64,000 nucleotides of DNA, taken from contig NZ_BSTQ01000001.1 in the NCBI RefSeq assembly GCF_030269605.1, forward strand, positions 766,850 to 830,849. Reading direction: 5' to 3'. The translations under genes were made by a program, and so were the position numbers. The number at the start of each line of letters is the position of its first letter. Within the stretch, counting starts at the first letter, position 1. Shown here in pieces: positions 1,043 to 55,039 of the stretch. This DNA is from Lentzea sp. NBRC 105346 (GTDB lineage Bacteria > Actinomycetota > Actinomycetes > Mycobacteriales > Pseudonocardiaceae). The notes under the pieces are model-generated. The model made no database searches. It saw only the letters and a list, made by a program, of their open reading frames with translations, and had not been told where the DNA came from.

Positions 1043-2610
1043 ATGCCCTCCAGCAGCTCGCTAGCCGGGTTGTAGTACTCCGGCGCCTTCTCGACCACGC
1101 CGTCCGCGCCCTTGCCCATGTCCGCCGGGCGCTTCATCAGGCCGAACGTGCCGTCCGCGATGGCGTTGAGCAGGCCGTCGTCGACGATGCGCTCCAGGAG
1201 GTCGACCGCCTCGCCGAGCACCTGGTGCGCGCGCTTGACGATGAGGCCGTCCGGTGCCGGGCGGAAGTCCTCGGCCAGGTTGCCCGCGGCGTTGAGCACG
1301 TACCGGACGTTGGCCAGCGCCAGGTCGCGGTCGGACAGGAACGGCGTCACGACCGCCTCGGTCATCATTCCGACCAGCAGGATCGACTGTCCGGTCAGGA
1401 CACCGCAGAGGTTGAAGAAACCGTCCAGCAGGTAACCGTTGAAGACGTCGCCGGTCATGTGCTTGGTCGGCGGCATCCACTTCAGCGGCGCGTCCGGGAA
1501 CAGCTCCCGCGCCAGCAGCGCGTGGGCGAGCTCCAGGCGGAACGAGTCCGGCACCTTCGGGTTGATCTCGAACGCGTGGCCGAGACCGAGCAGCTCGTCG
1601 GGCAGGCCCGCCTCGTGCGCGAAGTGCTCGTTGAGCAGCTGCGACACCGTGACGGTGTGCGCGGCGTCGACCGCGTCCGCGGTGGTGAGGTAGTTGTCCT
1701 CACCGGTGTTGATGATGATGCCCGCGCGGGCGTGGACCTGGCGCGAGAACCGCTGGTCGACGAACGTGCGGATCGGGTTGATGTCGCGGAAGAGGATGCC
1801 GTACATCGAGTCGTTCAACATCATGTCGAGCCGCTGCAACCCGGCCAGCACCGCGATCTCGGGCATGCACAGGCCCGACGCGTAGTTGGTCAGCCGCACG
1901 TACCGGCCGACCTCCTTCGACACGTCGTCCAGCGCGGCCCGCATGATGCGGAAGTTCTCCTGCGTGGCATAGGTTCCGGCGAACCCGTGGTGCGTCGCGC
2001 CCTCGGGCACGTAGTCGAGCAGCGACTGCCCGGTCGAGCGGATCACCGCGATGATGTCCGCGCCCGCGCGGGCCGCGTTCTGCGCCTGCACGACGTCCTC
2101 GTCGATGTCGCCGGTCGCGACGATCAGGTAGATCCACGGCCGCTGCGGCGGATCGCCGAGCTTCGTGACGAGTTTCTCGCGCTGGGCCTTGTTCCGGTCG
2201 ATCGTCCGGATGCCCTTCGCGACCGCGGTCCGAGCCGCCTTCGCCGCCCGGTCACGGTCCTTTCCTTGCGGGACCGTGAACTTGATCTGACCCGCCGCGG
2301 TGGCCTCGGCCAGCTCGGTCAGCGTCGCGATGTTGTTCTCGCGCAACGCGTGGAACGCGGGCAGCGAGACGCCGTGTTCGAGACCGCACTGCTCGCGCAC
2401 GGTGTCGATCACGCGGTTCACCCACGGCACGTCGCCGGCGCGGTGCGTCGAGTCGGCGCCGGTGATGCCGGCGAGCCGGAGCGTGGCGCGCTCGACCGCG
2501 ACCGTGGTGTGCGCCTTCGCGATCGACACCACGGGTTCGGCCGCCCGCGCGGCCAGTTTCCGCGCGGTGGCGACCACCTTCGGATCGAGGTCGAGCAACG
2601 CCATTGTCAC
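1039..2610 (-). CDS. kamD: Lysine 5,6-aminomutase alpha subunit
   Basis: A 523-residue large subunit, near the family's usual 510-525. It forms the TIM-barrel that holds the substrate and the PLP phosphate, while KamE carries cobalamin. Recognisable family segments are the N-terminal LDPKVVATARKLAARAAEPV stretch, GEDNYLTTADAVDAAHTVT and LGHAFEINPKVPDSF. ATG start at 2610, overlapping the upstream amidohydrolase stop by ATGA; its own stop overlaps the kamE start. Product of the pair is 3,5-diaminohexanoate, the substrate of Kdd encoded first in the same operon. Nothing suggests degradation. Confidence 0.95.
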   Translation of the reverse strand: MTMALLDLDPKVVATARKLAARAAEPVVSIAKAHTTVAVERATLRLAGITGADSTHRAGDVPWVNRVIDTVREQCGLEHGVSLPAFHALRENNIATLTELAEATAAGQIKFTVPQGKDRDRAAKAARTAVAKGIRTIDRNKAQREKLVTKLGDPPQRPWIYLIVATGDIDEDVVQAQNAARAGADIIAVIRSTGQSLLDYVPEGATHHGFAGTYATQENFRIMRAALDDVSKEVGRYVRLTNYASGLCMPEIAVLAGLQRLDMMLNDSMYGILFRDINPIRTFVDQRFSRQVHARAGIIINTGEDNYLTTADAVDAAHTVTVSQLLNEHFAHEAGLPDELLGLGHAFEINPKVPDSFRLELAHALLARELFPDAPLKWMPPTKHMTGDVFNGYLLDGFFNLCGVLTGQSILLVGMMTEAVVTPFLSDRDLALANVRYVLNAAGNLAEDFRPAPDGLIVKRAHQVLGEAVDLLERIVDDGLLNAIADGTFGLMKRPADMGKGADGVVEKAPEYYNPASELLEGM

Positions 2611-4139
2611 TTCCTCTCGTAGATCGTCCGTCCGTTGAGGACGGTCCGCAAGCAGGTGGGCAGAGGTCCGGTCAGGTCGGGCAGTCCGGGCACCCCGGAA
2701 CGCGGGTCGGTCGACCAGCGCTGCACGCGCGAGTCGCTCGCCGCGACCACGAGGTCACCGATCTCCCACACGGCGTAGGTGGCCGGCGCGCCCGGTTGCA
2801 GCGTGCCGGTCAGGCCGTCGTCGACACCGGCGGCGCGCCAGCCGCCGCGCGTGTGCGCGACGAACGCCGCGCGCGGCGAGATGCCGAACCCGTCGGTCTG
2901 GTGGTGCACCGCGGCCTTCACCGTGGCCCACGGGTCGATCGCGCACACCGGCGTGTCCGAGCCGAACGCCAGCACGACGCCCGCGGCCGCCAGGCGAGAA
3001 AAGGGATTGAGCCCCACTCCGCGTTCCTTGCCGAGGCGCTGCGCGTACATGCCGTCCGGCCCGCCCCACTCGGCATCGAACAACGGCTGCACGGACGCGA
3101 TGACGCCCCACCCGGCCAGTTTCGCGGCCTGCTCGGCGGTGATCATCTCGACGTGTTCGAGCCGGTGCCGTGCACTGGCCAGCGCGGGTGTGCCGAGGAT
3201 CTTCTCGGCCTGTTCGAAGCCTTCGACCACGGCGGCCATGGCGGCGTCGCCGATGACGTGGAACCCGGCCTGGAGGTTGAGTTCCGTGCACTTGACCAGG
3301 TGTTCGGCGATCTGGCTGGCGTTCAGGTACAGCGCGCCGGTCGTGTCCTGGTCCGCGTAGGGCTCGGTCAGCGCGGCCGTGCGCGAGCCGATCGCGCCGT
3401 CGACGAAGTGGTCACCGGCCAGGCCGCGGATCGGCAGGCCGATCACGTCGTGCCCGCCCCAGTACGCGACCACCTCGGGGCCGTTCTCGAAGGCCAGGAG
3501 ATCGGCCAGATCGTCCACGCCGGAGATGTCCGGGCCCGCGCACTCGTGGACGCTCGCGATCCCCTTGCTCGCGGCGTACTCGAGGAACGCGGCCTGGGCC
3601 TTGCGCCGCTGGTCGGGTGTGATCGCCGCCTTCGCCTTGGCCCGCACGTGGTGGTGCGCGTCCTGGCTGAGCGGGCCCTGGTCGTCCCAGCCCTTCGCTT
3701 TACGCGCATCGTCGGTGACCAGGTTGCTGCTGACCAACGCCGAGTGCACGTCGATCCGGCTGAGGTAGACGAGCTTGTCTCCCGCCGCGGCGTCGATCTC
3801 GGCGCGCGTCGGTGCGTCGTCGGGCCAGCGTGTCTCGTCCCAGCCGTGGCCCCAGACGAGCGGGCCATCGGCGTTCGCGATCTCGTTGAGCAGTTCGGCC
3901 TTCGACTCCGTCTTGGTGAGGTCGAGCCCGGTGAGCAGCAGCCCGGCGCTGGTCGCGTGCACGTGTGCGTCGACGAACGCGGGCGCGACGAACGCCCCGT
4001 TCAGCTCGACGATCTCGGCGTCCGGGTGGAGCCTGCGCCCGACCTCGTCCTGGCCGATCCAGACGATCATGCCGTCGGTCACGGCCATGGCCGTCGCATC
4101 CGGCGCGTAGATGCGGCCGCCGATCAACAAAGTAGTCAC
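2607..4139 (-). CDS. YtcJ-like metal-dependent amidohydrolase
   Basis: A 510-residue amidohydrolase-superfamily protein. The N-terminus has the small beta-sandwich typical of YtcJ/imidazolonepropionase relatives (LLIGGRIYAP), then the metal-binding H-x-H in FVDAHVHATSAG. Further family marks are HEC (SVHECAGPDIS), FHVIGDAA, HRLEHVEMI and the catalytic-type Asp in LAFGSDTPVCAIDPW. The GTG start at 4139 overlaps the kdd stop, and its stop overlaps kamD, so it belongs to the lysine operon. It has no role in the textbook fermentation pathway. It may hydrolyse an N-acylated lysine or cyclic lactam intermediate, or be a salvage enzyme; substrate cannot be read from the sequence. Confidence 0.85.
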   Translation of the reverse strand: MTTLLIGGRIYAPDATAMAVTDGMIVWIGQDEVGRRLHPDAEIVELNGAFVAPAFVDAHVHATSAGLLLTGLDLTKTESKAELLNEIANADGPLVWGHGWDETRWPDDAPTRAEIDAAAGDKLVYLSRIDVHSALVSSNLVTDDARKAKGWDDQGPLSQDAHHHVRAKAKAAITPDQRRKAQAAFLEYAASKGIASVHECAGPDISGVDDLADLLAFENGPEVVAYWGGHDVIGLPIRGLAGDHFVDGAIGSRTAALTEPYADQDTTGALYLNASQIAEHLVKCTELNLQAGFHVIGDAAMAAVVEGFEQAEKILGTPALASARHRLEHVEMITAEQAAKLAGWGVIASVQPLFDAEWGGPDGMYAQRLGKERGVGLNPFSRLAAAGVVLAFGSDTPVCAIDPWATVKAAVHHQTDGFGISPRAAFVAHTRGGWRAAGVDDGLTGTLQPGAPATYAVWEIGDLVVAASDSRVQRWSTDPRSGVPGLPDLTGPLPTCLRTVLNGRTIYERK

Positions 4140-5152
4140 GGTGTTGCAGTCTGCCGGTGCTCGAACAACGCCCGCACACCCGGCTGCGTGCGAAGCAGTT
4201 CGAGCGCGAGCTCGGCGTGTCCGGGCACGTACCCGTTGCCGACCAGCATCTCCACGTCGGCGGCCAGACCCTCCGCTCCCAAGGCGGCGGCGCTGAAGCT
4301 CGTCGCCATCGAGAAGAAGATCACGGTCCCGCCGTCGGCCGTGGCGAGGATCGCCCCGTGCTCACAACCGGGCACGTCGACGCACACGACCGTGACGTCG
4401 GCCTGCCTGCCGACGGCCTCCGCGACCGCGACGGGGTTGCGTGCGTCCGCGATCACGACCTCGTCGGCGAGGCCCGCGTTCTTGACGCTCTGGGCTTCCC
4501 TCTCGGTCGGCACGAGCGCGACGAGCTCCTTCGCGCCGGCCTGCCGCGCGGCCGCCAGCGAGAGGCTGCCGGACTTGCCGCCACCACCCAGGACCAGGAC
4601 GCGCGAGGCGTTCTTCTCCCGCACGACCCGCTCGGTGAGCGCGGGCGCGCCGCACACGTCGAGGACGCTGAGCGCCAGCTCGTCGGGCATGTCGCCGGGC
4701 AGCTTGGCGGCGATCGACCGTCCGAACAGGACGGCCGTACCGCGGCAGGGCACCTGCTCGTCGGTGCCGTCCCAGTCCTGCAGCCCGTCGGTGATCTTCA
4801 GCGGCGTCAGCGTGAGGCTGACGAGCGTCGCGATGCGGTCACCGGCGTTCAGCCCGAGCTTCGACTCGGGCCCGACCTCCAGCACGGTCCCGAGCAGCAT
4901 GCCGCCGGATCCGGTGACCGGGTTCTGCATCTTGCCGCGCTCGGCGACGATGTCGAGGACGGCCTGGCGGATCTTGTCGCCGGTGCCGTGCTCCTCCCTG
5001 AGCTGCCGGAACGACGCCGCGTCCAGGTTGAGGCGCTCGACGGAGACGATCACCTCGTCGGCGTGCGGCGCGGGGTCCGCGTCGAGCCGCCAGGCCTGCT
5101 GAGGCAGCACACCCGCTGGTTCGAGGACACGGTGCAGACCGTACGCGCTCAC
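4136..5152 (-). CDS. kdd: L-erythro-3,5-diaminohexanoate dehydrogenase
   Basis: A 338-residue protein beginning with GTG and reading MSAYGLHRVLEPAGVLPQ, matching the conserved Kdd N-terminus. The nucleotide-binding region is VLVLGGGGKSGSLSLAAA. Kdd oxidatively deaminates 3,5-diaminohexanoate to 3-keto-5-aminohexanoate with NAD(P). It resembles zinc-type alcohol dehydrogenases in fold but I see no clear zinc ligand set. It is the first gene of the operon. An AAGGA ribosome-binding sequence lies 7 bases before the GTG, and the 5153-5313 intergenic region upstream holds the shared kam element described at 5180-5203. Confidence 0.92.
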   Translation of the reverse strand: MSAYGLHRVLEPAGVLPQQAWRLDADPAPHADEVIVSVERLNLDAASFRQLREEHGTGDKIRQAVLDIVAERGKMQNPVTGSGGMLLGTVLEVGPESKLGLNAGDRIATLVSLTLTPLKITDGLQDWDGTDEQVPCRGTAVLFGRSIAAKLPGDMPDELALSVLDVCGAPALTERVVREKNASRVLVLGGGGKSGSLSLAAARQAGAKELVALVPTEREAQSVKNAGLADEVVIADARNPVAVAEAVGRQADVTVVCVDVPGCEHGAILATADGGTVIFFSMATSFSAAALGAEGLAADVEMLVGNGYVPGHAELALELLRTQPGVRALFEHRQTATP

Positions 5153-10072: not shown

Positions 10073-11440
10073 ATGACTGCGCTGCATGACGTCGCACCCG
10101 CGCTGGAGCGGCTGGACCGCCAGCCGTACGAGTACGTCCGCCGCGAGCTGGTCGAACCCGACTGGCGCCGGTTCCCCGGCTGGCGGGACGTCACCGAGGC
10201 GCAGTGGCGCGACGCCCAGTGGCAGCGCGTCAACTGCGTCAAGAACATGCGGCAGCTCCGCAAGCTGATGGGCGACCTGCTCGACGAGTCGTTCTACGAA
10301 GACCTCGAGCGCGACCAGCAGCAGCTCGCGACGATGTCGATGCTGATCCCGCCGCAGATGATGAACACGATGAACGTCGACTCCACGGAGGCGTTCCTCG
10401 CGGACCCGATCCGCAAGTACATGCTGCCGGTCGCGTCGGACCGCGACCCGCGCTGGCCGTCGCACCCGCACTCCCAGCGCGACTCGCTGCACGAGGCCGA
10501 GATGTGGGTCGTCGAGGGGTTGACCCACCGCTACCCCACCAAGGTGCTGGCCGAGATGATCTCGACCTGCCCGCAGTACTGCGGTCACTGCACCCGCATG
10601 GACCTGGTCGGCAACTCGACCCCGTTGATCGACAAGCACAAGCTGTCGCTGAAGCCGGTCGACCGCCAGGACGCGATGATCGACTACCTGAAGCGCACGC
10701 CGGGTGTCCGCGACGTGGTCGTCTCCGGCGGTGACGTGGCGAACGTGCCGTGGCCGCAACTGGAGTCGTTCCTGATGCGGTTGCTGGACATCGACACCGT
10801 GCGCGACGTCCGCCTGGCCACCAAGGCGCTGGCCGGCATGCCGCAGCACTGGCTGCAGCCGCGCGTCGTCGAGGGCATGGAGCGCGTCGCCCGCACCGCT
10901 TCCCGGCGTGGCGTGAACCTCGCGATCCACACGCACGTCAACCACGCCCAGTCCGTCACCCCGCTGGTGGCCGAGGCCGCGCGCACCGCGCTGGAGGTCG
11001 GCGTCCGCGACGTGCGCAACCAGGGCGTGCTGATGAAGGGCGTCAACGCCACGGCGGACGACCTGCTCGACCTTTGCTTTGCGCTGCAAGGGGAAGCGAA
11101 CATCCTCCCCTACTACTTCTACATGTGCGACATGATCCCCAACGCCGAGCACTGGCGGGTCGCGGTGTGGGAGGCGCAGGAGCTGCAGCACGCGATCATG
11201 GGCTACCTGCCTGGGTACGCGACGCCGCGCATCGTGTGCGACGTGCCGTACGTCGGTAAGCGGTGGGTGCACCAGCTCGCGTCGTACGACCGTGAGCTCG
11301 GGATCTCCTATTGGACCAAGAACTACCGGACCGGGATTGAGCTCGAGGACCCGGAAGCCTTGGACCGCCAGTACCCCTACTACGACCCGATCTCCACCCT
11401 GAGTGAGACCGGTCAGAACTGGTGGGCCGACCAGGGCTAG
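10073..11440 (+). CDS. kamA: Lysine 2,3-aminomutase (radical SAM, PLP)
   Basis: A 455-residue radical-SAM enzyme converting L-lysine to beta-lysine. The [4Fe-4S] cluster motif C-x3-C-x2-C is Cys166, Cys170 and Cys173 in STCPQYCGHC. GVRDVRNQGVLMKGVN and LPYYFYMCDM match conserved core segments. Lys396 in CDVPYVGKRWV aligns with the PLP-binding lysine of the clostridial enzyme, although the usual glycine-rich P-G-G-G-G-K is replaced by P-Y-V-G-K. The N-terminal extension is longer than in the 416-residue clostridial enzyme. Monocistronic, ending in a strong hairpin terminator. Its product feeds KamDE. A related mutase acting on another amino acid is possible, but the neighbouring kam genes favour lysine. 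Confidence 0.9.
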   Translation: MTALHDVAPALERLDRQPYEYVRRELVEPDWRRFPGWRDVTEAQWRDAQWQRVNCVKNMRQLRKLMGDLLDESFYEDLERDQQQLATMSMLIPPQMMNTMNVDSTEAFLADPIRKYMLPVASDRDPRWPSHPHSQRDSLHEAEMWVVEGLTHRYPTKVLAEMISTCPQYCGHCTRMDLVGNSTPLIDKHKLSLKPVDRQDAMIDYLKRTPGVRDVVVSGGDVANVPWPQLESFLMRLLDIDTVRDVRLATKALAGMPQHWLQPRVVEGMERVARTASRRGVNLAIHTHVNHAQSVTPLVAEAARTALEVGVRDVRNQGVLMKGVNATADDLLDLCFALQGEANILPYYFYMCDMIPNAEHWRVAVWEAQELQHAIMGYLPGYATPRIVCDVPYVGKRWVHQLASYDRELGISYWTKNYRTGIELEDPEALDRQYPYYDPISTLSETGQNWWADQG

Positions 11441-11447
11441 ATCGGCC

Positions 11448-11489
11448 GAAACGGCCTGTCGCGGGACATGTTCCGCGACAGGCCGTTTC
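11448..11489 (+). terminator. Terminator of kamA
   Basis: A perfect 17-bp stem, GAAACGGCCTGTCGCGG (11448-11464) with its reverse complement at 11473-11489 and an 8-base loop. It begins 7 bp after the kamA stop. No U-tract follows, as is common in high-GC actinomycetes. Confidence 0.85.
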
Positions 11490-11545
11490 GCATGACGCGT
11501 GTACCGCGGCCGCCAGCACATCGGCCTTGCCGGAGAAGTAGTCAC
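11490..11545 (-). pseudogene. Short TetR-like remnant
   Basis: Read on the minus strand this stretch encodes YFSGKADVLAAAVHAS, which resembles the end of a TetR helix-turn-helix domain (Y-F-x-x-K-x-x-L-x-A-x-V). It has no start, no stop of its own and no regulator domain around it, and it merges with the HPr-kinase-like remnant on one side and the kamA terminator on the other. Short match only. Confidence 0.35.
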
Positions 11546-12188
11546 CGCTCCACGAACGCCAGTCCCGCCAACGGAACCCGTGCCGTGATCCGGTCGTGGA
11601 ACACGTGGTCAGCCTGGACGATGTGGTGCTCGGGGGACCATCGGCGGGTGATGGCCGCCAACCGCGGATACCGTGCCACCAGCGGATGCACCGCGGTCGC
11701 GACCTCACCGACCGGGCGGGGTCAGCCGACCTGGCACCAGCGGTTTGCGCAGTGTCCGGAACACCTGCGGATACAGCGCCCGGTGGTGTGCCTTGAGAAA
11801 CAGCGGCTTCGGCCGGCTCGGCAACTCACCCGATGATGAGACGAACGCCCAGTCGTCGCCCATGAACCGCACGCCCGGCATGCGCATCGGCCTGGCGACC
11901 GTGCTGGTCTTGCCCACCCCGGCCCGAGACCCGTCACCCGTGGCCGGTCCGCGTGACGGTGGCCCACGGCAGGTGGACATCGCCCGTGTCGTACCGGTAG
12001 GCGGTCTCGGCGTACGCCGCGGCGGCCGGCGAGACCGGCCTGCCCGTGACCGTGACGACCGGTGTGACGTCGGACCGGCCGACTTCGAACAGGGCGAGCA
12101 TCAGGCGCAGCTGCGGTTCGGCGGGAGCGGCCCGGCTGACCTGGACCGACACCAGGCCGTGTACGTCGAAGCTCGTCCACTCGGTCAC
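11542..12188 (-). pseudogene. Degraded HPr-kinase/PEPCK-like P-loop protein gene
   Basis: Three consecutive pieces in different frames look like one gene. The first, from ATG at 12188, begins MTEWTSFDVHGLVSVQVS and ends at a stop at 11934. The second, in another frame, has the P-loop SRAGVGKTSTV followed by RFMGDDWAFVSS and KPLFLKAHHRALYPQVF. The third has VATAVHPLVARYPRLAAI and RRWSPEHHIV, ending near 11542. Order and spacing match the serine-kinase-like family in which G-D-D-W-A follows the P-loop, but the region between the N-terminus and the P-loop is missing and there are at least two frame changes. The gene is therefore inactive. Family naming is from memory of such sequences. Confidence 0.6.
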
Positions 12189-12220
12189 GGCAGCCCTCCG
12201 TCCTCTGCCCAGTCCACTGT

Positions 12221-12427
12221 GTACAACGAGACAACCCGGTAAAGAAGTACGCCGGACACACTCTGCGCAGAGGAACGCGAACGGTCCTTCGGTGGCGTTG
12301 GTTCCGCCGCTCCGACCAGCGGCGATGCACGTGCCGGCACGACTACCGCGCGCACTCGCACTACCGCCGCGGCACCGACTGCGCGCTGTGCCCCGGCGAA
12401 CGGTTCACTCCCGCACACGACAGCTGA
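12221..12427 (+). pseudogene. Cys/His-rich small protein remnant lacking a start
   Basis: The + strand frame ending TGA at 12427 encodes RRCTCRHDYRAHSHYRRGTD followed by CALCPGERF, a compact C-x-C-x2-H...C-x2-C pattern like a small zinc-binding protein. No ATG, GTG or TTG start is found upstream in this frame before it enters unrelated sequence, so I read it as the 3' end of a truncated gene. The rest of 12189-12486 shows nothing recognisable. Confidence 0.35.
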
Positions 12428-12486
12428 GCCGATCTTCGGCTCACCGGACGGCCGGCGGCGCCAGGTGACTCGCATCCGGCACCGGT

Positions 12487-15400
12487 TCACGCCAACCAAT
12501 AGCGCTCCCGCTGGAACGCATAGGTCGGCAGCTCGACCCGCCGGCCGCCGGCCAGCTCGGCCGGCCAGTCGAAGGTCTCCCCGCGCGTCCACGGATGCGC
12601 GGGGGTGTCCTCGCCCGCGGCCAACGCCTTCAGCGCGGCCACGAATCCCTCCCGATCGGCTGCCACGACCACCGCTCGCCGTTCGAGCGCGGCCCGCCCG
12701 GTCGCCAGGGTGTAGCCGATGTCCCGTGGGTTCAGGTCGCTCCGTAACTGCACGAACGAGGCGAGCCGTTCCGCCTGTGCCCGCAGCGACTTGTCGTCGT
12801 ACGCGGACAACGGCCACGCGACCTCGCTGCCGTCGTGCTCGACCGCAACGGCCGAGTCGGGCGCGGCCTCCAGGATGACGTGTGCGTTGGTGCCGCTCAT
12901 GCCGAACGAGGACACGCCGGCCCGGCGCGGCCGCCCGGTCTCGGGCCAGGGGCGCGCCCGCGTCAGCAGTTCGATCGCCGACCAGTCGACCTCGGGGGAC
13001 GGCTCGTCGGCGTGCAGCGTCCTGGGCAGCACGCCGTGCCGCATCGCCAGCACCGTCTTGATCACGCCGGTGACGCCCGACGCCGACTGGGTGTGGCCGA
13101 TGTTCGACTTCACGGTGCCGACGAGCAGGGGATGGTCGCGGTCATGGCCGTAGGCGCCGGTCAGTGCCCGCGCCTCGATCGGGTCGCCCAGCGGCGTTCC
13201 CGTGCCGTGCGCCTCGACAACGTCCACTTCGGACGGACGCAGTCCCGCCGCGGCCAGCGCCTGGCTGATGACCTGTTGCTGCGCGAGGCCGTTCGGCGCG
13301 GTCAGCCCGTTGGAGGCACCGTCGGAGTTGACCGCGGTGCCCCGCACGACGGCGAGCACCGGGTGCCCGTTGCGCCGGGCGTCCGACAGCCGCTCCAGCA
13401 GTACGACGCTCGCGCCCTCGGCGAGTCCCATGCCGTCGGCGGACGCGGCGAAGGCCTTGCAGCGGCCATCGGCGGCCAGCTCCCCCATCCGGCTCAGCCC
13501 CGTAAGCTCGTCGGGCCGGACCATCACGGTGACGCCGCCCGCCAACGCGAGCGTGCACTCGCCCTGGCGCAGCGCCTGCGCGGCGAGGTGCAGCGCCACC
13601 ATCGAAGACGAACACGCCGTGTCGACCGTGACGGCCGGGCCCTGCAGGCCGAAGACGTAGGAGATCCGGCCGGACAGCACGCTGATCAGCCCGCCGAGGC
13701 CGACCTCGTCGGGCGCGGTCTCGCCGTAGCCCTGATAGCGGCTGCCGACGTACACGCCCGTCCGGCTTCCCTTCAGTGACAACGGATCGATGCCCGCGCG
13801 TTCGAACGTCTCCCAGCAGATCTCCAGCAGCAGCCGTTGCTGTGGGTCCATGCCGAGCGCCTCAGCCGGTCCGATTCCGAACGGTGCGGGATCGAACTCG
13901 TCCGCCTCGTGCAGGAACCCGCCCGCACCCGCGTCGAGATCCCAGCCCCGTCGCCGGGGCAGTCCGGAGATGACGTCCGCGCCGGCGTCGAGCACCTGCC
14001 ACAGGTCGTCCGGCGAGCCGATTCCGCCGGGTAGCCGGCATCCCATGGCCACGATGGCGATCGGCTCGTCACCGGCGGCCGTGGTGATCGCGGGCGCGGC
14101 GGCCGGATCACCGGCGAGCTCGGCCCGCAGATGAGCGGCCAGCGCATCGACCGTGGGATGGTCGAAGACGACCGTGGACGGCATCCGCAGCCCGGTCGCG
14201 GCGTTCAACCGGTTCCGCAGGTCCACAGAGGTCACCGAGTCGAACCCGAGCTCGCGCAGCGCCCGGCCGGTCGGGATCGACTCCGCCGAGTCGTGGCCGA
14301 GCACGGCGGCGACGTGCTCGCGCACCAGATCGACGGCGTTCTCGGTCAACCGCGGTTGCGTGGGCGGCGTGTCGGGACGCCGCATGCGGTCCAGCAGCGG
14401 ATGCGCCCGCGCGCTGGTGAAGACCGGGATGAACCGGTCCCAGTCCACGTCCGCGACGGTCACGCACGTCTCGCCGCGGCCGACGGCCTGGCCCATGGCG
14501 GCCAGTGCCGGGCCGGGGTCGATGAGGGGCAGGCCCTGCTTGCCGACCTTGAGGTCCGGCACGCCCTGCCACCGTTCGGGAGTGTTCCAGACGCCCCAGG
14601 CGATCGAGGTCGCGGCGAGTCCTCGTGCCCTGCGCCGTTCCGCGACGGCGTCGAGGAAGGCGTTGGCCGCCGCGTAGGCGCCGTGATCACCGCTGCCCCA
14701 GACGCCCGCCACCGACGAGAAGAGCACGAAGGCGTCGACCGACGGGAACAACGCGTCCAGGTGCTCGGCCCCGGCCGCCTTGGCGGCGACCACGTCCGCG
14801 AACTCCGCCAAGGTCGTGTCCGCGACGGCGGCCAGCGAGATGTGCGCCGCCGCGTGCACGACGGCCGTGACGCCGGGCGTTCGCTCGGCCAGTGCGGCGA
14901 TCTGCTCGCGGTCGGCCACGTCGCAGGTCTCCACGGTCACCGGGATGCCCAGCTCGGCGATCCAGGGGGCGTCACAACCGCCGCGGGTGGTCAGCACCAG
15001 GTGCTCGGCACCGTGTTCGGCCAGCCACCTCGCCAGGTACGGCCCGACCGCGCCGGTCGCTCCGGTGACCAGCACCGTGCCACGGGGCCGCCACGCCGGG
15101 CCCGGCGCCGCCGGTGCGGGCACCAGCCGCCGGGCGAAGACGCCGTCCGTCCGCACCGCGACCTGGTCCTCGGTACCGCCCAGCACGCCGATCAACCGGC
15201 GGACGGCCAGGTCGTCGAGGTCGGCAGGGAGGTCGATCAAGCCGCTCAGCAGTTCGGGATGCTCTAGACCGATCACCCGGCCCAGGCCCCAGACCGCCGC
15301 CTGCGCCGGGGCGGTCCCGCTGTCGCGGGTCAGCGACCACAGGGGAACCCGGAGCTCCGCGTCGATCATGCCCTGCGCGAAGGCGAGGGTCAGCGCGAGA

Positions 15401-18348
15401 CCGGCGGGCAGCTCGGGATGCGCCGCTTCGGCGATCGCCAGCAACGACAGCACGCCCGTGACGGCGGGCATGTCCCGCAGCCGCGCGGCCACCGCGTCCC
15501 GGGAAGGCTCGGCCAGTTCCAGTGTGACGTCACCGAGTTCGGCCAGCGTTCGCACCCAGGGGTCCTCGCCGTGTCCCGCCGGGATCACCACGAGCCATCG
15601 GCCGGACAGGTGCAGCGGCGCCGGCTCCGGCAGTGGCTCCCAGGAGACTCGATAACGCCAGTCGTCCACGGTGTCGTCGGCGCGTGGCGAGCCTTCGAGC
15701 CAGTAGTGCCGGTGCTGGAAGGCATACGTGGGCAGGTCGACGCGGCGACCGCCCGCGGTGACGACGCCCCAGTCGACGGCGACCCCGCCGGCCCACAGTT
15801 CCGCCGCCGAGGCCGACAACCGGGCCGCGCCGCCGTCGTCGCGCCGCAGCGTGCCGCCGACGACCGCGTCGGCGGCGATCTCCTGCACGTCCGCGGTCAG
15901 CACCGGATGGGGGCTGACCTCCACGAACGCCTGGTGGTCATCGGCGACCAGCGACCGGACCGCGCTCTCGAACTCCACCGGCTGCCGCAGGTTCCGGTAC
16001 CAGTACTCCGCCGTCAGCTCGGCACCGTCCAGCCACCGCAAGTCCACAGTGGAGTAGAACGGCACGGCGGCCCGCCGCGGCCGGACCGGCGACAGCTCCG
16101 CCAGCAGCCGCTCCCGCACCGCCTCCACGTGCACCGAATGCGACGCGTAGTCCACCGGAACCCGCCGCGCCCGATCGACTCTGGCGAGAACCTCCTCCAG
16201 CGCCGCTGGATCACCGGCGACCACCGTCGACGACGGGCCGTTGACCGCCGCCACCTCCACGCCGGGAAACCGCACCTCCTCCGCCGGCAGGGGCACCGAC
16301 ACCATCCCGCCACGACCGGCGATCTCCCGCAACGCCCGGCTCCGCAACGCGACGATCCGCGCGCCGTCGTCCGTTGACAGCGCTCCCGCGACGACCGCCG
16401 CCGCGATCTCCCCCTGTGAATGCCCCAGCACCGCGGACGGCGCCACACCCCACGACCGCCACGACGTGGCGAGCGACACCATCACCGCCCACAACGCCGG
16501 CTGCACCACGTCGACCCGTGCCAACGCGGCCGCGTCGGCCAGCACCGCACGCAACTCCCAGTCCACAAAGGACCGCAACGTCTCGGCGCACTCGGTCATG
16601 CTCGCGGCGAACACCGGGCTGGAATCCCACAGCTCCAAACCCATACCGGCCCACTGCGACCCCTGGCCGGGAAAGACGAACACCGTGCCATCGGCCGGAC
16701 GCGTGCTGCCGCGCGTCACCCCGGCGGCGGCCTGGCCGCCGGCCAGCGCGCCGAGTCCCCGCAGCAGGCTCTCCCGATCGGGACCGGCCACGACCGCGCG
16801 GTGCCCGAAGGCCGAGCGTGTGGTGGCCAGCGAGTGCGCGACGTCCAGCACGTGCGGATCGTGGGTGTTCAGGTGAGCCAGCAGCCGGCCCGCCTGGGCG
16901 CGCAACGAGGCTTCGTCGTGTCCGGAGATCACCCACGGCGCCACGTGGTCGCCGGACGGCGCGGCCTCCACGGCGGGCGCCTGCTCCAGCACGACGTGCG
17001 CGTTGGTGCCGCTGATGCCGAACGACGACACGCCGGCCCGGCGCGGCCGTCCGGTGACCGGCCAGGGCCGCGCCTCGGTCAGCAGCTCCACCGCGCCCGA
17101 CGACCAGTCGATCTTCGGCGACGGTTCGTCGACGTGCAGTGTCTTCGGCAGCAGCCCGTGCCGCATCGCCTGCACCATCTTGATGACCCCGGCGATGCCC
17201 GCGGCGAACTGCGTGTGGCCGAGATTCGACTTCGCCGAACCCAACCACAACGGAACCGAACGGTCCTGACCGTAGGTCGCGAGCAACGCCTGCGCCTCGA
17301 TCGGATCACCCAGCGTGGTGCCGGTGCCGTGCGCCTCGACAGCGTCCACATCGGACGCGGACAACCCGGCGTTCGCCAGCGCCTGGCGGATCACCCGCTG
17401 CTGCGAGGGGCCGTTCGGCGCGGTCAGCCCGTTGGACCTGCCGTCGGAGTTCACCGCCGAGCCGCGGACGACCGCGAGCACCGGGCGGCCGAGTCGCTCG
17501 GCGTCCGCGAGACGTGCCAGCACCAGCACGCACACGCCTTCGGACAGGCCGATGCCGTCCGCGGCGGCGGCGAACGGCTTGCAGCGGGCGTCCGGTGCCA
17601 GTGCGCGCTGACGGGCCATCTCGACGAACGGCGTAGGGGTGGCGGCCACCGAGACACCGCCCGCGAGTGCGAGGTCGCATTCGTTCTGCCGCAACGACTG
17701 CACGGCCAGGTGCAGGGCCACGAGGGAGGACGAGCAGGCCGTGTCGATCGTGACGGCCGGTCCCTCGAGGCCCAGTGTGTAGGCGATCCGGCCCGACGCG
17801 ATGCTGCCCGCGCTGCCGTTGCCGAGATAGCCCTCCAGGTCGGCGGGCACGGTGCGCAGCCCGGCCCCGTAGTTCTGGTAGCTCAGTCCGGCGAACACCC
17901 CGGTCCGGCTGCCCCGCAGGGAAGCCGGGTCCACGCCCGCGCGTTCGACCGCCTCCCAGGACGTCTCCAGCAGCAGCCGATGCTGCGGGTCCATCGCCAC
18001 CGCCTCACGCGGCGAGATCCCGAAGAAGCCCGCGTCGAACGCGCCCGCGTCGGGCAGGAAGCCACCGCCGCGGGCATACGTCCGGCCCGGTGCCGCCGGG
18101 TCGGCGCTGTACAGCCGGTCCACGTCCCAGCCGCGGTCACGCGGGAAGTCGCCGATGACGTCGATCTCGTCCACCAGCAGTCGCCACAGCTCCTCCGGCG
18201 ACCGGACGCCGCCGGGAAACCGGCACGCCATGCCGACGATGGCGATCGGTCCGGAGGCGGCCTGCAGCTCGGCGTTGCGCTGCCGCAGCAGCTCGTTCTC
18301 CTTGAGGGCGTGGCGAAGGGCCTCGACGAGCCGGTCCTGGGCGGTCAT
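12487..18348 (-). CDS. Type I PKS, final subunit (PKS4): KS-AT-KR-ACP then a truncated KS-only module
   Basis: 1953 residues. After a short coiled-coil docking helix ([20 protein letters not shown]) comes a complete module: KS (active Cys about 205 in TACSSS, then EAHGTGT and KSNLGHTQ); AT with GHSQG (about 646) and YASH, indicating methylmalonyl-CoA; KR (TGATGAVG about 1093; no LDD, but [15 protein letters not shown], an A-type pattern with Ser, Tyr and Asn present); and ACP (LGFDSVTSV about 1370). A second KS follows with intact Cys (about 1582), HGTGT and KSNIGHTQ. Then the KS-AT linker passes straight to the post-AT linker [14 protein letters not shown] and a stop. The AT, any reducing domain, ACP and TE are absent. 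ATG at 18348 overlaps the upstream PKS3 stop by ATGA. Confidence 0.93.
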
Positions 18349-21300
18349 GCGGAACCTCCGGTGAAGGCACGCGCGATGAGGTCCTCGGCATCCATGGTGT
18401 CGATCAGGTCGAGCGCGACCGGCTGCTCGACTTCGGGAAAGAGTTCCTGTCGCAGGTGGCGGGCCAGCTCGGCCGGGCTCGGATGGTCGAACACCAGCGT
18501 CGCCGGCAACCTGAGCCCGGTGACCGCCGACAACCGGTTGCGCAGCTCGACAGCGGTCAGCGAGTCGAATCCGAGCTCCTTGAACGGCCGGTCCGCGCCG
18601 ACGAGGTCGACACCGGTGTGCCCGAGCACGGCGGCAGCGTTGCGGCGCACGGCGGTGGTCAGCACCCGGTCGCGCTCGGCGGGCGACGCCGAGCGCAGTC
18701 GCTCCGGCAACGACTCCTCGGCATTCCTGGCTGTCCGCTTGGGTTTGCGGGCCGGCGGGTCGAGCGGAGCGGCGATCACGGACGGCATCGCGAGCGTGCC
18801 CGCGGCGTCGAACAGGGCCATGCCCTGCGCGGAGGACAACGCGCGCGAACCGCCCCTCGCCAACCGGCCGCGATCGGTCGCGCCGAGGCGCCCGGTCAGG
18901 CCGCTGTCCTGCTCCCACAGCCCCCACGCCAGTGACGTCGCGGGCAGGCCGAGTGCCGCGCGGTGCTCGGCGAGCGCGTCGAGGAAGGCGTTGGCCGCGG
19001 CGTAGTTCGCCTGTCCGGCGTTGCCGAAGACGCCGGACGCCGAGGAGTACAGCACGAACGCGGCCAGGTCGAGGTCCTTGGTGAGCTCGTGCAGTGTCAC
19101 GGCCGCGTCCGCCTTGGGCCGCAGCACCGTGTCCACCCGGTCCGGGGTCAGCGCCTCGACCAGGCCGTCGTCGAGCGCGCCCGCGGTGTGGACGACGCCG
19201 GTGAGCGGCGGTTCGATTCCCGCGACGAGCTCCGCGAGTGCGGCGGGGTCGGCCACGTCGCAGGACGCGATGACGACCTCGGCGCCCAACCCGGCGAGCT
19301 CGGCCTCCAGCTCGGCGGCCGCGGCACGACCGCGCCGGCTCGCCAGCACGAGGTGCCGGACGCCGTGCGTGGCGACCAGGTGCCGGGCGGCGATCCCGCC
19401 GAGCGTGCCGGTTCCACCGGTGATCAGGACCGTGCCTTCGCGGTCGAGCGGCCGCGGAATCGTGAGCACGACCTTGCCGATGTGCTTGGCCTGGCTCATG
19501 AATCGGAACGCCTCCGGAGCCCGGCGAACGTCCCAAGTGGTCACGGGCAACGGCGACAGCGCGCCCTGTTCGAACAGGTCCACGAGCTCGGCCAGCATCC
19601 GGCCGATCCGATCCGGGCCTGCCTCGGTCAGGTCGAACGCTCGATAGCCCACATCGGACGGATTGCGAATGTCGGTCTTGCCCATCTCGATGAACCGCCC
19701 GCCCGGTGCGAGCAACCCGAGCGACGCGTCCACGAACTCACCCGCCAGCGAGTTCAGCACCACATCGACCTCGCCGAACACGTCCGCGAACTCCGTCGTC
19801 CGCGAGCTGGCGATCCGGTCAGCGTCCACGGCGTGCCACTTCTCCGGACTCGCGGTCGCGAACACCTCGGCGCCCCAATGCCGGGCGAGCTGGATGGCCG
19901 CCATCCCGACCCCGCCGGCGCCCGCGTGGACCAACACCCGTTCACCGGCACGCAAACCGGCCAGCTCACGCAACCCGTAGTACGCGGTCAGGAACGCCAC
20001 CGGCACCGACGCCGCCCGCGCGAACGACCACCCGTCCGGCATGCGCATCACCATGCGGGAATCCGTCACCGCGACGGGTCCGAAGGCGCCGGGGATCATG
20101 CCCATCACGCGGTCACCGGGCGCGAGTCCCGTCACCCGCGGCCCCACCTCGAGAACCACGCCGGCGCCCTCGCCGCCGATGTAGTCCTGCTCCCGGATCA
20201 TTCCGAGCGCGATCAGCACGTCCTTGAAGTTCACGCCGGCTGCGCGGACGGCGATGCGTACCTCGTGGTCGCGCAACGGCAGTCCGGCCTCGGGGCTGGG
20301 CGCGAGCCACAGCTCGTCGAGCGTCCGCCGGTCGGTGATGTCCAGTCGCCACACCGGTTCCGCCGGTGCCGCCAAGGCCGTGGACGCGCGTGCCACCCGA
20401 GGAACCAGCACCGTTCCCGCGCGCACCGCGAGCTGCGGCTCGTCCAGTGCGAGCGCCGCGGGCAGGACGTCCAGCGAGGCCTGCTCGCCGTCGATGTCCA
20501 CCAGCACGAACCGGCCGGGGTGCTCCAGCTGTGCCGAGCGCACGAGACCCCACACCGCCGCGCCGGCCGGGTTCGTCACGTCCCGCACGGCCCCGCGCGT
20601 CACCACCGCGAGACGACCGGACCCGTCCGTGGAAAGCCACGTCCGCACGAGAGCCAGGGCGTGGTGGGTCGTCGTGTGCACGGCCTTGGCGAGGTCCGCG
20701 GTGGCCGGTACGACGACCGAGGCCAGCACATCGTCGGTCTTCGTCGCCGGCGCGTCCACCGGCGTCCAGTCGAGGTGGAACAACGCGTCGAGGTGGAACA
20801 ACGCGTCGGGGTGGACGGCCGGCAGTGGGCGCGTCACCACCGCGCCGATCGCCGCGACGGGCCGGCCAGTGTCGTCGGCGAGCGTCACCGAGAGCTCACC
20901 GTCCCGATCGGACACCAGCCGCACCCGTACCGCGGACACTCCGGTCGCGTGCAGGCAGACGTCGTTGAAGGAGAACGGAAGCCTGACCTCGTCGACCGGG
21001 CCGCCCGCCGCCGCCGCGTGCATGGCCGCGTCCAGCAGCGCGGGATGGATGCCGAAGCCCTTGGCCGAGTCCGGCCCCTCCACCTCGGCGAAGATCTCGC
21101 CACCGCGCCGCCAGATCGCCCGGACGCCCTGGAACGCCGGTCCGTAGCCGTAACCGGCCGCATCGAGGTCCCCGTAAAGATCGATGTCGACGGGCACCGC
21201 GTCCGCGGGCGGCCACTCGCTCAGGTCCGTCGCGCGATCCGGCCGCTCGGCGGTGATCATCCCGCTGGCGTGCCGCGTCCACTCCGAGCCGTCAGACTTG

Positions 21301-24300
21301 GCGTGGATGGTGACCGGCCGGCGACCGGGCTCGTCCTCCGCGGCGACCTTGACCTGGAGGCGGACCGCACCGGTTTCCGGTACGGGCAACGGCGTTTCGA
21401 TCACCAACTCGGCCACGACCGGGCAGCCCACCTCGTCGCCGGCGCGCAACGCCAGCTCGACGAAGGCGGTTCCCGGCACGATGGCCGATCCACGCACCGC
21501 GTGGTCGGCCAGCCACGGGTGCGTCCGCAGCGAGATCTGTCCGGTGAGCAGCACACCGTCGTCGTCGGCGAGGTCGACCACCGCGCCGAGCAGCGGGTGG
21601 TCCCCCTCGGTCAGCCCGAGTCCTTCCGCGGCAACGCTTCGGGTCGGTTCGACCCAGAACCGCTCGTGCTGGAACGCGTACGTCGGCAGCTCGGTCCGGT
21701 GGCCACCGGCGACGGCGTGGCTCCAGTCGACGGGTACACCGCGCACCCACAGTTGGGCGAGGGAGTTCCACAGTCGCGGCAGTCCGCCGTCGTCGCGCCG
21801 CAGTGTTCCCGTCACGATCGCGTGCTCCGCGATCTCCTGCACGTCCGTGGCCAGCACCGGATGCGGGCTGACTTCGACGAACACTCCGTGGTCCTCGCCG
21901 AGGTCCCTGATCGCGGGCTCGAAGTGCACCGTCTGCCGCAGGTTGCGGTACCAGTACTCCGCGGTGAGCTCGGTCGTGTCCAGCCAGTCGCCCGTCACCG
22001 TCGAGAAGAACCGCACCGCCGCGGATTTCGGCGTGACGTTCAGTACGTCCAGCAGCTCGTCGCGGATGTCCTCCACGTGCGGCGAGTGTGACGCGTAGTC
22101 GACCGGGATTCGCTTGCCCACCAACGCATCGACGTCGCCCGAGAGCACGAATGACGAGGGCCCGTTCACCGCCGCAACGGACAACCGCGGATCGTCCGGC
22201 ACCTCCGACACCACACACATCCCGCCGCGGCCGGTGATCTTCCGCAACGCCCGGCTCCGCAACGCCACAACCCGCGCGCCGTCCGCCAGCGACAACGCAC
22301 CCGCCACCACCGCCGCCGCGATCTCACCCTGCGAATGCCCCACCACCGCATCGGGTTCAACACCATACGAACGCCACAGCTCGGCCAGCGACACCATCAC
22401 CGCCCACAACGCCGGCTGCACCACATCCACCCGCTCCGTCTCGTCGAGATCCAACTCAACGAACGGAGCAAGCGCCTCCGCACACTCCCCCATCCGCGCC
22501 GCGAACACCGGCGAAGACTCCAACAACTCCCGCGCCATCCCCGCCCACTGCGAACCCTGACCGGGGAAGACGAACACCACCTTGCCGGTGGCACGAGCGA
22601 CACCTTCGACGACGTTCGCCGACGGCATCCCCTCGGCCAGCGCCGACAGACCGGACCGGACGTCGCCGACCACCACGGCCCGATGCTCGAACGCCGATCG
22701 CGTGGTCGCCAGCGAGTAGGCCACGTCCACCGGATCCACATCCGCCACACCCAGCAACCGCTCGGCCTGGTCCCGCAACGCACGACCGGTCCGGCCGCTC
22801 ACCAACCACGGAACCGGCCCACCCTGGCCGGAAGACGGAGGGACCACCGAGGGTGGCGCTTCCAAGATCACGTGGGCGTTCGTGCCACTCACCCCGAATG
22901 CGGAGACGGCCGCGCGGCGCGGCCGCCCGGTACTCGGCCACGGTCGTGCCTCGGTCAGCACCTCGACGGCACCCGCCGTCCAGTCGACCTTCGTCGACGG
23001 CTCGTCGACGTGCAGGGTTCGCGGCATGGTCCCGTGCCGCATCGCCAGCACGGTCTTGATCACCCCGGCCACCCCGGCCGCCGCCTGCGTGTGCCCGAGA
23101 TTCGACTTCACCGACCCCAGCCCCAACGGCACCGAGCGGTCCTGCCCGTACGTCGCCAGCAGGGCCTGCGCCTCGATCGGATCACCCAGCGTGGTACCGG
23201 TGCCATGTGCCTCGACAACGTCCACATCGGACGGAGTCAGCCGCGCGTTGGCCAGCGCCTGCCGGATTACGCGTTGCTGCGACACGCCGTTGGGGGCGGA
23301 CAGACCGTTCGACGCGCCGTCCTGGTTGACCGCGCTGCCGCGCAGCACCGCGAGGACCGGGTGGCCGTTGCGTTGCGCGTCGGACAACCGTTCCACCAGA
23401 ACCAGGCCGGTGCCTTCGGACCAGCCGGTGCCGTCCGCGGCCGCCGCGAACGGCTTGCACCGGCCGTCGGGCGACAGCCCCCGCTGCCGGGAGAACCCGA
23501 CGAACGCGCTGGGTGTGGCCATCACCGTCACACCGCCGGCCAGTGCGAGCGAACATTCGCCTGCTCGCACGGACTGCGCCGCCAGGTGCAGCGCCACCAG
23601 CGACGAGGAGCACGCCGTGTCGACCGTGACGGCGGGTCCCTCCAAGCCCAGGGTGTAGGCGATCCGGCCGGTCAGGACGCTGGCCGCGCTGCCGGTGCCC
23701 ATGTACGCCTCGAGTTCGTCGCCCGCCTGGTGGAGCAGCGCTCCGTACTCGTGGTAGATCACGCCGGCGAACACACCGGTCGCACTGCCCCGCAACGACT
23801 TGGGGTCGATGCCGGCCCGTTCGAACGTCTCCCACGCGGTCTCCAGCAGCAACCGCTGCTGCGGATCCATGGCCAGCGCTTCGCGCGGGGAGATGCCGAA
23901 GAACGCGGGGTCGAAATCGGCGGCGCCGTCGAGAAACCCGCCGGCGTCGACATAGCTCGTGCCCGCCCGGTCCGGGTCGGGGTCGAAGAGGCGATCGAGA
24001 TCCCAGCCGCGATCGGTCGGGAACCCGCCGACCACGTCCCGCTCGGAGCCGACCAACCGCCACAGGTCCTCCGGCGAGCTCACGCCACCGGGGAAGCGAC
24101 AGGCCATGCCGATGATCGCGATCGGCTCGTCGGCGTCGGCCACCACCGCCGTCGGTGCCTCATCGACGGTGTCGCCGAACAGGTCCGCGCGCAGGCGCCG
24201 GGCCAGCGCGACCGGGTTGGGGTGGTCGAACACCAGCGTCGCGGGCAGCCGCAAGCCGGTCGCGGCGGCGAGCCGGTTGCGCAGCTCGACCGCCGTCAGC

Positions 24301-27300
24301 GAGTCGAACCCCAGGTCCCGGAACGCGCGCTCCGGCTCGACTCCGGCGGCGTCCGAGTGGCCGAGGACCGCGGCGGCGTTGGCGCGCACCAGGTCCAGCA
24401 GGGTCCGGTCCTTCGCCGCGTCATCGAGCCCGGCCAGGTGGCCGGCCGCGGAGCCGTCGACGGCGACCCGGCGAGCCGGTCGCACAAGGCCACGCAGGAG
24501 AGGCGGCACGTCCGCCCCGCGCAAGGCGGCCAGGTCGAGCCGCACCGGTACCACGGCGGCGTCGGCGGCGTTGATCGCCGCGTCGAACAACGCCATGCCC
24601 TGTGCGTTGGAGAGCGGCAACGCGCCGTTGCGCGACATCCGGGCGTGGTCGGTCTGCCCGAGGTGGCCGGTCATCCCGGTCGCCTCCGCCCACAGCCCCC
24701 ACGCCATCGCCGTCGCGGGCAGCCCCTCATCACGGCGACGCTGGGCGAACGCGTCGAGGAAAGCGTTGGCCGCGCCGTAGTTCGCCTGGCCCGGACCGCC
24801 GAAGACCCCGGCGGCCGAGGAGAACAGCACGAACGCCGCCAGATCCGCGTCCCTGGTGAGCTCGTGCAGGTGGACGACGGCGTCGGCCTTGGGGCGCAGC
24901 ACGGTGTCCACGCGTTGCGGCGTCAACGATTCGACGACGCCGTCGTCGAGGACACCGGCCGCGTGCACGACCGCCGTCAGCGGGCGGTCGAGCCCCGCCA
25001 GTAGTTCGGCGAGCGCGACACGATCGGCCACGTCGCACGCGGCGACCCGCACCTCCGCATCCGGAATGGTCAGCTCGCCACCGCTGCGGCTGACCAGCAG
25101 CAGGTGCCGGACACCGTGCCGCGCGACGAGATGACGGGCCAGCACACCGCCGAGCGTCCCGGTGCCGCCGGTGATGAGGACCGTGCCTTCGGGGTCGAGC
25201 GGCCGGGGAATCGTGAGGACGATCTTGCCGATGTGCCTGGCCTGGCTGAGGAACCGGAACGCCTCCGGTGCACGACGCACATCCCACGCCGTCACCGGCG
25301 GCAGCGACAGCACACCACGCTCGAACAGTTCCACGAGCTCGGCCAGCATCCGCCCGATCCGCTCAGGACCGGCCTCCATCAGGTCGAACGCCCGGTAGTC
25401 CACATCGGACAGATCGCGAATGTCGGTCTTGCCCATCTCCAGGAACCGGCCACCCGGTGCGAGCAAACCCAGCGAGGCGTCCACGAACTCACCGGCCAGC
25501 GAGTTCAGCACCACGTCCACCTCGCCGAACACCTCCGCGAACTCCGTCGTCCGCGAACTCGCGAGATGATCGGCGTCCACCGCGTGCCACTTCTCCGGAC
25601 TCGCGGTCGCGAACACCTCCGCACCCCAATGCCGCGCCAACCGCACCGCGGCCATCCCCACACCACCCGCGGCAGCGTGGACCAACACCCGCTCACCAGC
25701 ACGCAAACCCGCCAGCTCACGCAACCCGTAGAAAGCGGTCAGGAACGCCACCGGCACCGACGCCGCCCGCGCGAACGACCAGCCATGAGGAATTCGGGTC
25801 ACCAGGCGCGCGTCTGCGCGGGCGACCGTACCGAACGCGCCGTCGAGCAGTCCCATGACCCGGTCGCCGACGGCGAAGCCGGTCACGCCCGGACCGGTCT
25901 CCAGCACGATCCCCGCGCCCTCGCCGCCGATTCCGTGCTGACCGGGCACCATGCCCAGGGTGACGACGACGTCCCGGAAGTTGACGCCGGCGGCCCGGAC
26001 AGCGATCCGGATCTGCCCCGGCGCCAACGGTTCTTCCTCGTCGCTGGGAACGAATCCGAGTCCGTCGATGCTGCCCTCGCCGAGCACGTCGAGCCGCCAG
26101 CCGGAGGTGCCGGGCAGCGCGAGCTCGCGCGCGCCTCGGGTCAGCCTGGGCACCAACGCCTCGCCGGACCGCACCGCGACCTGGGACTCACCGGGAACGA
26201 AGAGTACGTCGGGGCCATCGGTGTCCACGAGCACGAAGCGGTCCGGATGTTCGGCCTGCGCACAGCGCACGAGCCCCCACACCGCGGCGCTCGCCGGATC
26301 GACGTGGTCGCCGGGCCGGGCGGCGACCGCGTTGCGCGTCACGATGGCGAGCCGGGCCGAGTGATCTCCGGCGAGCCACTCCTGCACCAACGCCAGCCCC
26401 CGATGGGCCGGCGGGCGTACCTCGGAGTCCGGAAGGCAGTACGCCACCTCGACGTCCGGCGCCGGCTCGGCGCTCGCCGGGACCCAGTCCACGCGGTACA
26501 GGGAGTCCGGGGTCGCCGCCTCCACGGAGACGGGTCGCATCCGCAACGACTCCGCCGAGGCGACGAGGTGTCCCGCGCCGTCCGCGACCGCGACGCTCAT
26601 CGCATCGGTTCCGGCCGGCACCAGCCGGACCCTCAGCGTGGTCGCCCCCGTAGCCCGCAGGCGGAAACCGTTCCACACGAACGGCAGCCGCGCCTGCTCC
26701 TCCCCGGCCAGGAACCCGGCGTGCAGCGCGGCGTCGAGCAACGCGGGGTGCAGGCCGAACCGACCGGCGTCGGCGCGCTGCTCGTCCGGCAGGCTCACCT
26801 CGGCGAACAACTCGTCACCGCGCCGCCAGGCCGCGCGCAGCCCGCGGAACGCGGGGCCGTAGCCGTAGCCGGTCCGCGCCAGCCGCTCGTAGATCCCGTC
26901 GATGCCCACCGCCACGGCCCGTGCGGGCGGCCACTCGGTGAAGTCGAAGTCCGGCTGGGCAACGGAATCCGCCAGCGTGCCGGCGGCATGCCGGACCCAC
27001 GTGCCGTCGTCGTGCTGGGCGTGGACGGTGAGCTGCTCACGATCGGTGACCCGCACCTGCACCACCACGGCGCCGTCCGGTGGCAGCACGAGCGGCGTCT
27101 CGATCACCAGCTCGGCCAGACCGTCCCGGCCGACGTGGTCGGCTGCGTGCATGGCCATCTCGACGAACGCCGTTCCCGGCAGGAAGATCGAGCTCGCCAC
27201 GGCGTGATCGGCCAGCCACGGGTGGGTATGCCGGGACAGCCGTCCGGTGAGCACCACCTCCGCGGAGTCGGCCAGGCCGACCACCGTGTCCAGCAACGGA

Positions 27301-49739: not shown

Positions 49740-49744
49740 GCCGA

Positions 49745-55031: not shown

Positions 55032-55039
55032 GGCCGAAC

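Follow-up and report, generated by a model that had tools for sequence, protein, structure and literature searches.

A terminal ketosynthase of EbeE type in a Lentzea polyketide assembly line and its predicted role in β-lactone release

Introduction

EbeE is the last protein of the synthase for ebelactone, an esterase inhibitor of Streptomyces/Kitasatospora aburaviensis, and the modules ahead of its end are described as sufficient for ebelactone (PMC5082578). A published footnote suggests that the C-terminal ketosynthase (KS) of EbeE promotes β-lactone formation and release; in titles and abstracts of the open-licence literature no experimental test of this KS was found, most subscription papers being outside that scope. 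Chain release by a KS is described for CalA3 of the calcimycin synthase, by amidation or hydrolysis (PMC10006239), and for the tenuazonic acid synthetase TAS1, whose terminal KS releases by cyclization (PMC4640141). Here we analyze the terminal KS (KS2) of PKS4, the final protein of a polyketide synthase (PKS) line encoded in a window of 64,000 nucleotides from Lentzea sp. NBRC 105346 (positions 766,850–830,849 of contig NZ_BSTQ01000001.1). Judged by sequence comparison, EbeE-type terminal KSs appear to be a known, rare kind, of which PKS4 would be a new instance on a different type of line.

Results

The open reading frame (ORF) for PKS4 lies on the minus strand (window positions 12487–18348). 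It starts with an ATG at 18348, with GGAGG upstream and an overlap with the PKS3 stop, and as delimited the protein has 1953 aa and is identical to a database entry (P0121). Pfam gives the layout docking domain (DD), KS, acyltransferase (AT), ketoreductase (KR), acyl carrier protein (ACP), KS2 and KS-AT linker domain (LD), behind which the sequence shows the post-AT linker (PAL). KS2 comprises 396 residues (12880–14067, minus strand) and is followed in the Pfam scan by the LD only (PF22336/PF22621; 12601–12879, lower edge approximate, also seen as a modeled fold), with no AT, ACP or thioesterase (TE) match. An AT, which in a complete module spans about 300 residues, is absent, and the LD abuts the PAL directly (12490–12600, upper edge approximate). 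The C-terminus reads ...GGRRVELPTYAFQRERYWLA-stop; it is a post-AT linker, and no C-terminal docking domain was seen. This layout agrees with the original prediction of a terminal module reduced to a KS, with the two linkers joined at about residues 1900–1953, an end in RERYWLA and no TE or ACP behind them.

The prediction that KS2 keeps its catalytic Cys and both His also held, and the Lys is kept as well. In the numbering of the 540-residue terminal piece, C166, H301, K334 and H339 (codons 13612–13614, 13207–13209, 13108–13110 and 13093–13095, minus strand) are invariant in alignments of 7 and of 68 sequences.

An AlphaFold model of the terminal piece predicts KS, LD and PAL as one whole unit without an AT, of the kind found in trans-AT synthases. 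The model can be aligned as far as residue 538 with KS-AT chains, in which the matching stretch extends beyond the AT. In structural alignments KS2 is 52–60% identical to the KSs of DEBS, Lsd14 and rifamycin KS-AT structures, 50–51% to CalA3, below ordinary extending KSs, and 35–42% to trans-AT KS structures (bacillaene, isomigrastatin, oxazolomycin). The AT-free form and structural extent are thus those of a trans-AT unit, whereas the discrete AT and AT-free modules throughout that mark such synthases are missing: the line has seven cis ATs, the other PKS modules carry their own AT, and no ACP follows KS2.

PKS4 also differs in layout from the two releasing systems. CalA3 is described as a stand-alone KS-AT-DH-KR protein (DH, dehydratase) without ACP that gives an amide (or acid). 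Mutation of its catalytic Cys to Ala is reported to abolish amidation and to increase hydrolysis (PMC10006239). Like PKS4 it has a cis-AT-type KS in terminal position with Cys-His-His intact, and chain release by this KS is what we predict for PKS4 too, but KS2 is fused behind KS-AT-KR and its own ACP and has no AT, DH or KR. TAS1 likewise has a lone C-terminal KS, which closes the ring and releases the product (PMC4640141). It is a fungal protein with condensation (C), adenylation (A), peptidyl carrier protein (PCP) and KS domains, a Cys-His-Asn triad and a tetramate product formed by a Dieckmann-type closure. Its order, with the KS directly behind the PCP, is not that of PKS4.

The closest relatives of PKS4 are EbeE and a Kitasatospora protein. 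A query with the linker region returned EbeE (P0133) with 99% coverage and, lower in the list, a protein of Kitasatospora sp. NBC_01246 (P0145) that is identical letter for letter to the protein encoded in genome G627. Both were also retrieved by a script that screens for proteins whose terminal KS lacks an AT. The order DD-KS-AT-KR-ACP-KS-LD-PAL-stop is common to all three proteins, and both EbeE and P0145 stop two residues past YWL or FWL. The plus-strand megasynthase ORFs of G627 have KS/AT counts of 0/1, 1/1, 2/2, 2/2 and 2/1 (the loading KS was unread by the pattern, and an AT motif was also matched in one antisense frame), in agreement with Table 1 of PMC5082578 for EbeA–EbeE.

PKS4 and EbeE are 65.5% identical overall, and KS2 is the best conserved domain (76%, against 72% for KS1, 67% for the ACP, 61% for the KR, 60% for the AT and 56% for the second LD plus PAL). 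Differences are found in the line, which is malonate-primed with six modules for EbeE and consists of an aryl ligase, a carrier-C-A-PCP protein and seven modules for PKS4. The AT motif is YASH in PKS4 versus VASH, and PKS4 KS2 has 396 residues versus 420 in EbeE KS2, two loop segments being shortened.

KS2 was compared within a set of 484 KS domains, cut from search matches and the window; since the searches used KS2 and its linker, the set is biased to similar KSs. Here KS2 is 78% identical to the terminal KS of P0145 and 77% to that of EbeE. To any further KS, except its own database copy, identity is at most 72%, and with the other KSs of the PKS4 line it is 46–70%. The top match in one search (P0001) is a partial sequence with an inflated score, since it contains a repeated stretch.

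The terminal KSs of PKS4, EbeE and P0145 form a clade in a quick tree of 61 rows (Shimodaira-Hasegawa-like approximate likelihood ratio test, SH-aLRT, 100) and in a more careful tree of 40 rows (bootstrap/SH-aLRT 100/99). Their first KSs also cluster in the latter (99/92), from which the first KS of PKS1 was excluded as a long branch; no trans-AT KS row is known in the trees. Approximately unbiased (AU) tests, named after the quick tree had been seen, rejected a grouping of seven of the line's eight KSs (p-AU 0.0124) and the placement of KS2 within the core KS clade of its own line (p-AU 0.0033); KS2 forced beside KS1 of PKS4 gave p-AU 0.0138. The two clades and the tests indicate that PKS4 and EbeE share a common ancestor at both KSs, and not at one alone.

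Two further proteins were seen among the matches. The KS of a 623-aa protein (P0003) is the nearest row outside the three (92/66 in the 40-row tree) and has a post-RGW deletion like that of PKS4 KS2, but unlike the KS2 unit it carries a docking domain at the N-terminus, and an AT comes behind the KS. A partial protein of Streptomyces sp. UH6 (P0100), from a cis-AT-type synthase, contains at residues about 598–754 an internal AT-free KS-linker-post-AT linker followed directly by a DH.

Agreement between the KS2 codons and those of the G627 homolog is 0.82, 0.87 and 0.63 at positions 1, 2 and 3, respectively, and at fourfold sites it is 0.61 for KS2 and 0.55 for KS1. These values suggest that KS2 has been kept under strong constraint since the split from EbeE and the Kitasatospora homolog.

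Residues exclusive to the three terminal KSs could also be identified. After removal of the PKS4 database entry (two KSs) 482 KSs remained, and after removal of the three terminal KSs 479. R124, I142, M170 and E210 are shared by the three and found in 0 of these 479; E201 occurs in one of 479, L138 in three of 472, and G80, S123, L205 and S342 in less than 5% of the other KSs. Arg124 (13738–13740, minus strand) is the second position of the motif S123-R124-Y125-Q126 (SRYQ) at the dimer interface. The four positions of this motif are described as lying on a dimer-interface loop where VMYH selects enoyl and TNGQ D-β-hydroxy intermediates (PMC11321453).

TNGQ and VMYH are also the commonest motifs of our KS set at this site. 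SRYQ is found in 3 of the 424 KSs in which the motif was readable (58 of 482 were unreadable), and these are the three terminal KSs. The KR ahead of the terminal KS carries an A2-type motif in PKS4, where the last full module has no DH, and likewise in EbeE and P0145; the call follows the usual A2 signature residues. Of the 424 KSs, which were to be paired with the KR before them, 170 stood at an N-terminus and 117 lacked a legible KR; once duplicates and edge cases had been taken out, the count was 124. P0145 was missed by the pairing pattern and its KR was read separately. Five pairs with an A2-type KR were read, with SRYQ in the two terminal KSs and VSHQ, LAEQ and GNVS in the others. SRYQ as a mere A2-substrate motif was rejected on these three other pairs, from a small sample of five.

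The family seems to be rare. Only PKS4, EbeE and P0145 were found, in a protein ranking that holds the best 120 of 7961 by summed KS score and may hide weaker members. The motif searches used exact patterns on samples or on one genome per species, where the own and near genomes may be omitted. In the contigs of an 84,980-species collection DTACSSSMV together with YQGYG gave 0 stretches. RYQ (Arg as CGC only) together with DTACSSS gave 18, six of them in frame and four of these KSs (L022, L023, L030 and L035), none of which contains GSRYQGYG. Among whole genomes GSRYQGYG was found in 1 of 24 of the genus (the own genome), 1 of 394 of the class (again the own) and 1 of 394 of the family around genome G165 (G627). 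A plasmid search gave generic PKS matches of 60–62% identity among the 15 listed of 1294 records.

No match to PF00975 (thioesterase) or PF12697 (α/β-hydrolase) was found in the window at E up to 0.001, the hydrolase search being limited to these families, and a hidden release enzyme in the window was rejected on these empty searches. PF00975 also gave no match in the 60 kb fetched around the G627 line, in which the homolog resembles PKS4. At the same threshold neither a discrete AT (PF00698) nor a free ACP (PF00550) was found in the window: all matches, including nine carrier domains, lie inside long megasynthase frames (150 of 212 candidates were scored in the carrier-domain search). Among frames below 1000 aa just one AT match exceeds the cut-off; its frame, of 336 aa, is on a different contig, and we take it for the housekeeping FabD.

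Discussion

We conclude, with a probability of about 0.6, that KS2 is an EbeE-type terminal KS to which the last ACP would hand over the finished β-hydroxyacyl chain, and that release would follow in the form of a β-lactone. Cys166 of KS2 would receive the acyl chain from the module 7 ACP. As no AT or ACP serves KS2, it would be unable to extend the chain, and the β-hydroxyl would instead attack the Cys166 thioester, releasing the β-lactone. Arg124 of SRYQ, which would touch the β-hydroxyl, and the retained His are likely helpers in ring closure. The released chain is predicted to be primed by an aryl-aminoacyl unit, to consist mostly of polypropionate and to end in an α-methyl β-lactone. The original prediction had offered an unusual route as one explanation of the bare KS. 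Of its variants, transfer or release by the KS itself is favored by the comparison with EbeE, while for a trans-acting AT or ACP no discrete match was present in the window.

On the divergent PKS4 line the EbeE-type unit is retained, with KS2 better conserved than any other domain, and this speaks for a working KS. The comparison also yields four exclusive residues, including one Arg at a known substrate-gate position. The terminal protein can serve as a genome-mining handle for TE-free β-lactone polyketides and is a candidate portable release unit. More tentatively, and at somewhat less than even odds, EbeE-type KSs may be dedicated lactonases derived from KSs, in which the gate Arg of SRYQ, the Met at Cys+4 and the His pair orient and activate the β-hydroxyl for closure of the Cys-bound chain, and which move between lines as one protein, here to an aryl-NRPS-PKS line (NRPS, nonribosomal peptide synthetase) whose product would form a new class of β-lactones.

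Several points weigh against a releasing role for KS2. The passages of the cited papers report no activity for an EbeE-type terminal KS, and the role of EbeE is given there as a footnote suggestion. The family is known from three members, EbeE KS2 has 24 residues more than that of PKS4, and the product is a predicted one. Part of the high KS2 identity may reflect less divergence overall, since fourfold sites agree more than in KS1, and a function lost recently would leave no mark in averaged constraint. Finally, ring closure may not need the KS, since the N-acetylcysteamine (SNAC) thioester of the ebelactone precursor cyclizes spontaneously according to a review (PMC4979870).

Release with an external nucleophile, either water or, as in CalA3, an amine, would give an acid or amide and is an unlikely alternative to lactone release. 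KS2 has its nearest relative in EbeE, of a β-lactone-forming line, and shows no special closeness to CalA3, and no dedicated amine-nucleophile gene was recognized among the window genes inspected. Downstream of PKS4, an aminomutase-like gene lies close to genes for lysine degradation.

The spontaneous closure of the SNAC thioester, together with a window that has no other match to a release enzyme, favors a β-lactone that closes unaided on the last ACP, with KS2 as a passive or structural relic. We nevertheless regard this as improbable. A relic should drift, but KS2 is the best conserved PKS4–EbeE domain with all catalytic residues kept, and codon agreement is far lower at its third positions than at its second.

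A dead or decaying line that lost its last module by deletion in this lineage is very unlikely: the debris-like short ORFs at 11440–12487 and the two shortened KS2 loops would fit it, but the same end is found in two other genomes, the five megasynthase frames are open and KS2 has been under constraint. The original prediction had allowed for a truncation by deletion, but the AT loss and stop are common to EbeE and the Kitasatospora homolog, and among the matches listed no homolog with an intact module was found, the two closest stopping at the same place. A sequencing or assembly error, which had been named as another way out, is unlikely, since two genomes share architecture and end and the contig (1,197,153 bases) continues far on both sides of the window; fresh truncation and assembly error were both rejected on the shared end. 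Equally remote is a split module, begun by KS2 and finished in trans by an AT and ACP from another locus, as the trans-AT-like KS-LD-PAL form of KS2 could suggest, because PKS4 ends without a visible C-terminal docking domain, EbeE ends alike although its preceding modules are reported to suffice (PMC5082578), and rescue in trans was rejected for want of a discrete AT or ACP match in the window, the 336-aa AT frame on another contig being assigned to FabD.

Assembly line and neighboring genes

The line consists of an aryl ligase, a carrier-C-A-PCP protein and seven PKS modules. The aryl-AMP ligase, a probable starter loader, is encoded on the plus strand (53202–55031, the true start probably within the ORF); its best NCBIfam model is 2,3-dihydroxybenzoate-AMP ligase, with a score below the model cut-off. 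It is followed on the same strand by a cytochrome P450, probably a tailoring enzyme (55028–56245). For the NRPS starter protein (carrier-C-A-PCP; 49745–53383, minus strand) a comparison with 149 genomes at E up to 1e-150 gave, outside its own locus, no protein more than 42% identical.

The remaining PKS genes are also on the minus strand. PKS1 (44016–49760, upstream edge approximate; Pfam) has one KS-AT-DH-ER-KR-ACP module (ER, enoylreductase), and PKS2 (29955–44006) has one such module followed by two KS-AT-KR-ACP modules. PKS3 (18345–29936) has two KS-AT-DH-ER-KR-ACP modules. The AT motif is HAFH in PKS1 and YASH elsewhere, with YPSH once. We take HAFH to indicate malonyl and YASH or YPSH mostly methylmalonyl units. 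Six Rfam ASpks matches were found on the plus strand opposite the PKS genes (42894, 37260, 33117, 28818, 23106 and 17230), distributed across the modules, and are probably conserved PKS coding sequence, not RNAs.

Positions 1–5152 (minus strand) and 10073–11440 (plus strand) likely represent a lysine-degradation locus beside the cluster. Both subunits (alpha and beta) of lysine 5,6-aminomutase and L-erythro-3,5-diaminohexanoate dehydrogenase could be identified at 299–5152, above NCBIfam cut-offs, while the KamA-like radical SAM or aminomutase-like gene at 10073–11440 falls below all six family cut-offs listed. A β-amino-acid route via this gene was set aside, since the enzymes at 299–5152 make a lysine-degradation setting likelier. 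The region behind PKS4 (11440–12487) holds short ORFs (84 and 91 aa) with no Pfam match, which by eye resemble parts of a gene for a P-loop kinase and a fragment of TetR and are possibly gene debris at the cluster boundary.
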